A stretch of 64,000 bases of DNA from Bacteroidales bacterium. Lineage in GTDB: Bacteria; Bacteroidota; Bacteroidia; Bacteroidales; UBA932. The DNA lies in contig JAFUMO010000068.1 in NCBI GenBank assembly GCA_017482565.1, forward strand, positions 1-64,000, read 5' to 3'. Below are positions 55,940-58,380 of the stretch, in pieces. The position numbers were made by a program, and so were the translations under genes. Each line of letters begins with the position of its first letter. Position 1 is the first letter of the stretch. Under the pieces are notes generated by a model, which was not told the origin of the DNA, did no database searches, and saw only the letters and a list, made by a program, of their open reading frames with translations.

Positions 55940-55975
55940 GCCTTTTTGCCAGATGATGTTTTAAACAGTTTTGTT

Positions 55976-57232
55976 ATGAGGATTTTTGTATGCTTCATAT
56001 TGTCCCTGATATTGTGGGGATGCTCTTCACATGGAAAAGAAAATGTTGAGGTTCAAGAGAATGTGGAGGCACAGCCTGTGCTCAAGTATGGTCTGGAGAT
56101 TGAGAAGTATGACATTGAGCCCGGTGAGATAGGAAAGGGGGATTATTTTGGCTCCATAATGGACAGGGCAGGTGTAGATCCCAACATGGTGCAGAGGATC
56201 CTTGCAGCTTCCAGGGAGGTTTTTGATGTCAGGAAAGTGAAGCTGGGGAGCCCGTATGAGATTCTCAGGGAAAAGGATTCTCTTGGCAGGGCGGCCTATT
56301 TCGTTTACGAGCTGGATAACCTCACACATGTGGTGGTCTCATTGAAGGATTCCCTCTACGCAAGGCTGTATGTAAAGGAGGTGGTGCCCGTAAAGAAACA
56401 GGCGGAGGTTACAATAAATACCTCCCTGTGGAATGATGTGCAGAAGGCTGGTATTCCGGTAATGATGGCGCTCAAGCTCTCGGATGTATATGACTGTACA
56501 ATAGATTTCTTTGGGCTTCAGGGCGGGGATTCGTTCAAGGTTATGTATGATGAACTCCAATATGAGGGGGAGTATATGGGATTGGGCAAGATATATTATG
56601 CTGAGTTCATACATGCAGGGAAGCAGTATAATGCAATAAGGTTCAATGCAGGGGAGAACAGCAGCACTTTCTGGAACGAGAAGGGTGAGAGCCTTAAGAA
56701 GGCGTTCCTGAAGGCCCCTCTGAATTTTACAAGGATAAGTTCAAGGTTCACATACGCCCGCAAACATCCGGTGCTGAAGATTGTGAGGCCTCATACGGGT
56801 GTGGATTATGCCGCTCCGAGCGGTACGCCTGTGGTTGCCCTGGGTGACGGTGTGGTTACCCACAGGGGTTGGGCCGGTGGCGGCGGCAATACAATCAAGA
56901 TAAAGCATCCGGGGAATTATGTGACATCTTACATGCACCTTAAGGGGTATGCCAAGGGAATTTCTGTAGGAACCAGGGTATCAAGGGGGCAGCTGATAGG
57001 TTATGTGGGAAGTACCGGTCTCTCTACCGGCCCTCATCTGGATTTCAGGGTGTACAAGAACGGCAAGCCCATTGACCCTCTGAAGATGGAGAGCCCGAGC
57101 GTTGAGCCGGTTTCAAAGGAGAAGATGCCCGAATTTGAGGCGCAGATGCAGAAATACAGGTATCAGCTGGACAGCCTCAACTCTGCCGGATATGTGCAGG
57201 AATATCTCCGCATCCTTGGCGGCAACTCATAA
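55976..57232 (+). CDS. M23 metallopeptidase lipoprotein
   Basis: 418 aa from MRIFVCFILS; the frame opens ten codons earlier. Lipobox LWGC (Cys about 16). The N-terminal part (GDYFGSIMDRAGVDPNMVQRIL) resembles the OapA/LysM-like domains of Csd3-type proteins, followed by a mid domain and a C-terminal LytM (M23) domain with zinc motif RPHTGVDYAAPSGTP and HLDFRVY. Likely a DD-endopeptidase that cuts peptidoglycan crosslinks in the envelope, divergent from the dcw operon. Its TAA is part of the 13-bp inverted repeat bounding the next segment. Confidence 0.9.
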   Translation: MRIFVCFILSLILWGCSSHGKENVEVQENVEAQPVLKYGLEIEKYDIEPGEIGKGDYFGSIMDRAGVDPNMVQRILAASREVFDVRKVKLGSPYEILREKDSLGRAAYFVYELDNLTHVVVSLKDSLYARLYVKEVVPVKKQAEVTINTSLWNDVQKAGIPVMMALKLSDVYDCTIDFFGLQGGDSFKVMYDELQYEGEYMGLGKIYYAEFIHAGKQYNAIRFNAGENSSTFWNEKGESLKKAFLKAPLNFTRISSRFTYARKHPVLKIVRPHTGVDYAAPSGTPVVALGDGVVTHRGWAGGGGNTIKIKHPGNYVTSYMHLKGYAKGISVGTRVSRGQLIGYVGSTGLSTGPHLDFRVYKNGKPIDPLKMESPSVEPVSKEKMPEFEAQMQKYRYQLDSLNSAGYVQEYLRILGGNS

Positions 57233-57748
57233 GGAACCTTTCAATCATCCATCTGCACTCTGCAGCATACAATTGACAAAAGGCATTGTATGGCCGGGTA
57301 TGCAGCTGATTGCAAGAAAGGGGGAGACGACGAAGTCTCCTCTGCTGCGTCATTGCCTTTGGCAATAACTTGCAACCGTCGAATTAGGTCCCCCCTTTCT
57401 TCAATGCATCTGCCAATACCATACAAGTACTTTGATATTTGATTATATGCTGCAGAATGCATTTGTAAGGGAAAACATGAGCCTGAGCGAATGGAGGGTG
57501 AGGCGGTAAGAGAGGGGAGAAAATTCATCGCCTTGTGACGGCACATGTCTGACGACGTTAGGCCCCGTTAGGGGCTAAAAGGAGGAGTTTGCCGTCAAGA
57601 TGAATTTTATTCCCTCTCAGCCTCAGCCGAGACTGAGCGAAGGTTCTTTGTTTTCCTGAGGCAGAATGCATTCCGGCATTTGTAAGCCATGTCAAAGGAT
57701 ATCCATGTGCCTTGCCTAAGAATGAGGTACAACTTAAAGGTTCCTTAT
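57229..57748. repeat. Non-coding palindromic segment bounded by 13-bp inverted repeats
   Basis: A 512-bp gap between convergent genes. ATAAGGAACCTTT (57229-57241) and its exact reverse complement (57736-57748) bound it and include both neighbouring stop codons. Inside are two long imperfect inverted repeats: 57283-57325 with 57389-57430 (11-bp core AAGAAAGGGGG, 8-bp TTGTATGG), and 57455-57560 with 57585-57672 (shared GAATGCATT, GGAAAACA, AAAATTCATC, GACGGCA). The first encloses small hairpins at 57323-57340 and 57352-57366. Small open frames here conflict with the palindromes and are not credible genes. It may be a MITE-like insertion, a structured RNA or a repeat family. Confidence 0.7.
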
Positions 57749-58380
57749 TTTTTTCTGATGAGGTTGAGGCCGTCACGCAGGGGGATGATTACGTTTTCCA
57801 CGCGGGGGTCATCCTTTACCATCCGGTTGAACTTGAGGATTCCCTGTGTCTGGGCATCCTGAGGCACGTTTTCCTGATATACCTTTCCGTCCCAGAGGAC
57901 ATTGTCTGCCAGGATGTATCCTCCCGGGCGTACCATGTCAAATACCAGCTCATAGTAGGTGGGGTATTCCCTCTTGTTGGCATCTATGAATACCAGGTCA
58001 TACATTTTCCCCTCTTCCCTGAGGCGCAGCAGGGTCTCCTTTGCGTCCCCTATGTGGAGGGTTATCCTGTCTGAAAGGCCGGCCTTTTCATGGGCCTGGA
58101 GGATAAGGTCTTCCAGTTCGTCATTGAGCTCCAGGGAATCCATGTGTCCCCCTTCCTTCAATCCTCTGGCGAGGCATATTGCGGAATAGCCTGTAAAGGC
58201 ACCGAGTTCCAGAATGTTTTCCGGCTGGATCATACTGGCAATGAACTCCATGAGCTTCCCTTCAACCGGGCCGCACAGCATCCTTGCATGGTTGGTCCTC
58301 AGGTTAGTCTGTTTCTGCAGCCATTTAAGTACAGGGTCCTGTTCCTGTGAGTATCCGGTTATGTATCCGTTCAAGTCCAT
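57745..58380 (-). CDS. SAM-dependent O-methyltransferase, family 3
   Basis: 211 aa, CCoAOMT-like. SAM site ILELGAFTGYSAICLARGL, metal-binding FIDANKREY and ADNVLWDGKV. No signal peptide; cytoplasmic. Relatives methylate catechols or, in some bacteria, 23S-type RNA or small molecules; the substrate is not readable. It starts 1 bp after the M16 protease stop. Confidence 0.88.
   Translation of the reverse strand: MDLNGYITGYSQEQDPVLKWLQKQTNLRTNHARMLCGPVEGKLMEFIASMIQPENILELGAFTGYSAICLARGLKEGGHMDSLELNDELEDLILQAHEKAGLSDRITLHIGDAKETLLRLREEGKMYDLVFIDANKREYPTYYELVFDMVRPGGYILADNVLWDGKVYQENVPQDAQTQGILKFNRMVKDDPRVENVIIPLRDGLNLIRKK

Follow-up and report, generated by a model that had tools for sequence, protein, structure and literature searches.

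REP and REPIN elements are dispersed extragenic hairpins that are moved by RAYTs, and in the Bacillus cereus group, the dispersed bcr1 repeats measure about 150 bp and are predicted to fold as RNA. GOLLD, ROOL, and OLE, large structured RNAs whose function is poorly known, are present as families in Rfam. In the sections of Di Nocera et al. (2013; PMC3733652) used here, CGTC-tagged REPs have a stem that begins with AT beside a CGTC (or TGTC/CCTC) tag; this stem is 8–9 bp long, the loop 4–5 nt, and the tail close to CCA. In the same sections, these REPs lie between convergent or tandem genes, near stop codons, head-to-head dimers predominate, and Bacteroidetes are among the phyla listed.

Here, we describe S and L, a real, multi-copy pair of structured elements in genomes of gut-dwelling Bacteroidales, most simply RNA, with REP-like placement and conservation turned inside out. 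Like REPs and REPINs, S and L are dispersed extragenic hairpins thought to be mobile; unlike them, they have no copy beside the RAYT-like (PF01797) genes at the 16 loci compared here, and they combine variable stems with a conserved core. They share with bcr1 the status of dispersed repeats with a predicted fold, a likeness of description rather than sequence, in unrelated organisms. Similarly, they resemble GOLLD, ROOL, and OLE in being long and structured, with a function that is poorly known, but, unlike those families, have no match at or above the gathering threshold in Rfam 15, which in the window returned only 5S and LSU rRNA.

The window is the 64,000-nucleotide stretch of contig JAFUMO010000068.1, from a Bacteroidales bacterium, that was analyzed. 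As originally predicted, it contains a 512-bp gap (57233–57744) between two convergent genes: an M23-family peptidase (55946–57232, plus strand, stop codon at 57230–57232; PF01551, E = 2e-32) and an O-methyltransferase (57745–58380, minus strand, stop codon at 57745–57747; PF01596, E = 1.7e-50). A perfect 13-bp inverted repeat spanning both stop codons, also predicted, lies at 57229–57241 and 57736–57748, with a T-run after the right arm. The long imperfect inverted repeats described inside the gap are likewise present; they are not nested, S and L being neighbors enclosed only by the 13-bp repeat. The plus strand of the gap folds at −210 kcal/mol (z = −7.9, with none of 100 dinucleotide shuffles equally good) and the minus strand at −203.7 kcal/mol. 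The gap is thus no single-copy, unconserved stretch with a shuffle-like fold, the outcome against which the original prediction was to be judged: it is multi-copy, and the suggestion of a structured RNA is supported. By eye, several composite copies have left ends like that of the window element; in a rough scan of 23 L copies, whose pattern missed the 13-bp repeat of the window itself, only locus L029 carried a perfect repeat of at least 8 bp at its ends. The 13-bp repeat may be the element's own end. On balance, we give an even chance to the reading in which two dispersed elements of structured RNA, S and L, together make up the gap between the convergent genes.

The S hairpin occupies 57254–57461, with the minus strand as the family's favored, RNA-like strand in the window, and its arms pair at 57254–57273/57442–57461, 57279–57293/57419–57433, and 57302–57324/57391–57413. 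Its core of ~70 nt (57322–57391, minus strand, from model R1 and the family alignment) is near-fixed, and variable arms start directly at the core edge. Within the core lies a CGTC-tagged small hairpin (57348–57369, plus strand). Set against the CGTC-tagged REPs as they appear in the sections of PMC3733652 used here, S has CG(T/C)C-AT at this hairpin in 42/42 copies (exactly CGTC-AT in 35), sits near stops in convergent or tandem-sense gaps in 35/40 cases, and is likewise without an associated transposase among our findings. Relative to the same sections, it differs in stem length (5 bp in 29 of the 42 copies, 7 in six, 6 in four, and 4 in three, against 8–9), in loop size (3 nt in 27/42, and 4 or 5 in only 6/42), in its tail (AAC in 35/42, AGC in 7/42), and in keeping a further ~50 nt of core with long copy-specific arms around it.

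In most S copies, the arms are unrelated between copies and complementary within each copy, and in 39/42 copies the score for pairing of a copy's own arms lies beyond the 99th percentile of the cross-copy values. Near-identical left arms occur in just four pairs among the 42 copies, all of them orthologues, and by eye, the arms at L060 and L104 in G007 resemble each other, some of their changes being matched. Conserved terminal inverted repeats, a feature of MITEs, are not found in S, whose arms differ among most copies. Two subtypes, A and B, can be distinguished. In type B (18 of 21 listed copies), 97.9% of cells are paired versus 79.2% in shuffled and at most 49.1% in slid alignments, with two-sided changes in 21/35 pairs; in type A (20 of 21 copies), the figures are 90.1% versus 75.3% shuffled and 22/34 pairs. 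Because the structures were written by hand from the aligned sequences, which biases the percentage paired towards them, two-sided changes are the stronger evidence.

The L hairpin (about 57469–57657) is favored on the plus strand, and its core (57532–57603, plus strand, model R3) contains TGACGACGTTAG at 57550–57561 and CTAAAAGGAGGAGTT at 57575–57589, both on the plus strand. For L, 98.5% of cells are paired versus 91.7% shuffled, with two-sided changes in 13/37 pairs (the window plus 23 of 24 listed rows). The observed pair counts exceed every shuffle for both S types and for L, except for further pair types in L, which 5/500 shuffles reach. Across genera, the L core has two-sided changes in 11/19 pairs; the pattern UGUYUGAYGAC(C)GUUAG-hairpin-CUAAAAGG(G)ARGAGUU is constant, and flanking helices vary. 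Upstream of many L copies is a hairpin of a third type, M, which occurs alone in G016 (L024, L085, L149, L151, L217).

Both families prefer one strand. Summed over 42 S copies, the folding energy is −2501 kcal/mol on the favored strand versus −1991 on the other, with 211 versus 64 G-U pairs; for 22/23 L copies, the sums are −2310 versus −1912 kcal/mol and 153 versus 47 G-U pairs. The favored strand of S is opposite to the core as drawn, and that of L is the drawn strand. The outer S arms alone contain 31 A-C against 14 G-T oppositions on the drawn strand, the former corresponding to G-U on the other strand. The strand bias of type M is weak (nine copies). From these family preferences, it follows that in the window the S RNA would be read on the minus strand and the L RNA on the plus strand, each in sense with its upstream gene. 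A preferred strand alone does not discriminate between RNA and single-stranded DNA. Taken together, the two-sided changes and the strand bias of G-U pairs point to a single strand, most simply RNA, as the target of selection.

A BLAST search with the 520 bp found four further places in the same genome, three for S and one for L, and a covariance model added a fifth further place, for S. Among 41 genomes (this one and 40 relatives), six match the gap, all within the genus; the five genomes closest to our own at the right-hand gene (76–79% identity) are exactly the other carriers, the next-closest having 71% identity. Model R1 of the S core, built from 34 copies, finds multi-copy S in 5/39 genus genomes (partial copies included, G000 5, G007 20, G009 12, G016 8, and G024 12) and none in G006. 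The larger searches, of the family and the order, used stricter filters with few candidates scored per genome, making their counts lower bounds: S occurs in at least 10/299 family genomes, of which five, in genus g30, match model positions 22–54 or 22–58 only. Model R2 finds L in at least 40/299 family genomes and 5/25 genera, counting a weak partial match in one more genus-mate, G048. With model R3, the 74-nt L core is found in at least 7/393 order genomes, our own included, in families f1, f20, f49, f74, and f99, with the G455 match being partial and weak. An exact-pattern scan of a genome collection yielded 20 loci in four uncultured ‘Bacteroidales bacterium’ isolates, two of which are labeled yak cecum and water deer cecum. 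Two exact L-core patterns had no match in viral contigs (divergent copies would escape), nor did one L element of another genus in plasmids. Relaxed Rfam searches across 28 loci yielded no match that reached the threshold; one of the weaker matches, to the cspA thermoregulator at L337 2636–2985 (minus strand; E = 2e-9; 48.3 bits, gathering score 78), is outside the L core. Searches of mostly open-access literature found no description of S or L, and four exact core strings retrieved one unrelated paper only. The two families thus appear, from these searches, to be uncatalogued.

Relative to genes, 40 S copies could be classified with a required 400 bp of flank and ORFs called by a simple rule: 18 are convergent, 17 tandem-sense, 5 tandem-antisense, and none divergent. 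The S stem starts a median of 11.5 nt from the stop codon (32/42 copies with an ORF end found). A T-run directly after the stem is absent in 35/42 copies (7/42 have at least five Ts in the first 8 nt), and S is therefore no usual intrinsic terminator. In the genus, 17/23 L copies were classified as 12 convergent, 3 tandem-antisense, and 2 tandem-sense, the window copy being scored tandem-antisense owing to a spurious ORF in the gap. In other genera, rough ORF calls placed 25 of 26 listed copies as 10 convergent, 9 tandem-antisense, 4 divergent, and 2 tandem-sense. The 3′-end rule is good for S and fair for L in the genus; beyond the genus, the classified L copies are not mainly at 3′ ends. Three side observations concern the neighborhoods. 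In two genomes, 3′ halves of S adjoin repeated Rhs-like coding tracts (L210 in G007:C25; L046/L090 in G007:C11; L075 in G009:C56), where by eye the gene stop may fall within an S remnant. A copy of the L core from another family of the order is situated ~35 bp past an Rhs-like ORF (L341, G641:C36, about 1048–2545). TTCTTCCCGACA or a similar string is found repeatedly close to gaps that bear elements (L003, L005, L042, L052, L056, L072) and is perhaps, as a guess, a promoter-start motif read backwards.

Several comparisons bear on mobility. A 129-bp S unit, arms included, is present at two unrelated G009 loci with different flanks at 99.2% identity, so the whole hairpin can be moved or copied. 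At orthologous gene ends, one hairpin may stand in for another: the L061 site has S in G007 versus M plus L in G024, and the L072 site has S in G024 versus L in G007 versus M plus L in G006. At the L060 site, only the left arm and the first core bases remain in G024. In the pairs L070/L137 and L073/L102, the element bin is 99% identical and most flanking bins 60–93%, which fits selection or local exchange; such orthologues would not be predicted by drift of free arms alone. No obvious target-site duplication was seen by eye at aligned empty sites. At L053 (G007:C36:30600–35000, about 2040–2414), the right S half is tandemly repeated with an 86-bp period, and one stretch reads N.

We regard S and L, with about even confidence, as mobile, REP-like 3′-end RNA elements with a putative 3′-end stabilizer or terminator function and a putative mover. 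Each element would form the 3′ end of a transcript from the gene that lies upstream of it on the favored strand, so that in the window S would go with the minus-strand gene and L with the plus-strand gene. It would fold into a long rod ending or protecting the message, and a putative factor would bind the conserved loops within it (AGAGGAGAC in S; UGACGAC together with AAGGAGGAGUU in L). Arms that need only pair could drift jointly, with the core being held. The elements would spread as non-autonomous units via a putative enzyme. Weighing against this reading are the missing T-runs in S, the placement of L beyond the genus, the weak strand bias of M, and the orthologues with 99% identical element bins; moreover, no transposase was found beside the elements.

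The strongest competing explanation, although only about half as probable in our judgment, places all of this at the DNA level: REP/REPIN-like palindromes would form single-stranded DNA hairpins for a tyrosine (HUH) transposase without any RNA role, and the strand bias would mark the cut strand. Dispersed palindromes in convergent or tandem gaps are what is described for REPs in the sections of PMC3733652 used here, and DNA hairpins also tolerate G-T pairs. PF01797 proteins occur in 21/39 genus genomes, including 6/6 BLAST carriers of S or L but also 15 of the other 33, and none of the 16 PF01797 loci fetched, eight of them from carriers, has an S or L copy detectable by BLAST nearby. Moreover, the variable part is the stem and not the core, the reverse of REPs.

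Less probable still is that L is a free-standing, trans-acting small RNA gene of Bacteroidales, duplicated in some lineages, with S as a separate 3′-end repeat. Such a gene would agree with the one to four L core copies in most carrier genomes beyond the family (nine in G474), with whole folds of three distant copies at z = −2.2, −5.6, and −6.6, and with neighboring genes that by eye differ from locus to locus and that we take to be unrelated housekeeping, Rhs-like, and other genes. Against it, L is multi-copy in several genera of its own family, and its outer stems are unrelated from genus to genus. L units in the other genera of the family are dispersed repeats whose flanks are unrelated. 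The G474 copies are clustered (L334–L336), several within a few kb.

The original prediction also proposed insertion into the loop of a pre-existing terminator, suggested by the outer 13-bp repeat with its T-run. Inserted elements of a repeat family are indeed present; the pre-existing terminator fares poorly, and we consider this version very improbable. In G009, the two stop codons at the window site are separated by 13 bp, with neither elements nor outer stem; in G016, the site holds about 0.54 kb with M-type hairpins replacing S and L. The L053 site has S in G007 and G009 and is empty in G006, G024, and G000; the L070 site carries S of type B in G007 and G024 and, on the opposite strand, of type A in G009 (L067), and is empty in G000 and G006. 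Arms are also absent from the empty relatives at L053 and L070. A terminator pre-dating the insertion is thus rejected at all three sites, and since empty sites are without arms, the stem either arrives with the element or arises at the site. By eye, short terminator-like hairpins do occur in some relatives at the L050, L055, L065, and L069 sites, without the element arms, which in any case are complementary within a copy and unrelated between most copies. Orthologous to the L069 site, L136 and L140 (G024, G006) have tandem hairpin tracts of another kind at the same gene end. Equally improbable is that replication template switching made the palindromes and kept them perfect without selection on pairing: the S core stem as drawn, in which one-sided changes are very few beside the two-sided ones, and the partly rewritten arms at the orthologous site L062/L063 agree with it, but it predicts neither strand-biased G-U pairs, nor cores conserved across genera and families, nor post-stop placement.

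More speculatively, L may be an ancient Bacteroidales structured RNA turned self-spreading 3′-end element in several lineages, with S, L, and M competing for the same gene ends (sister species have different hairpins at one site) and one host RNA-binding factor reading AGGAG-containing loops, a motif common to S and L as judged by eye; we hold this proposal as tentative.

The dispersed palindromes compared here repeat the stem, whereas S keeps the core and rewrites both arms of the stem, and the core of L extends to five families within one order. If transcribed, S and L would represent a new RNA class at gene ends, one whose structure itself is what spreads, and the identity of a factor reading the conserved loops would become testable.
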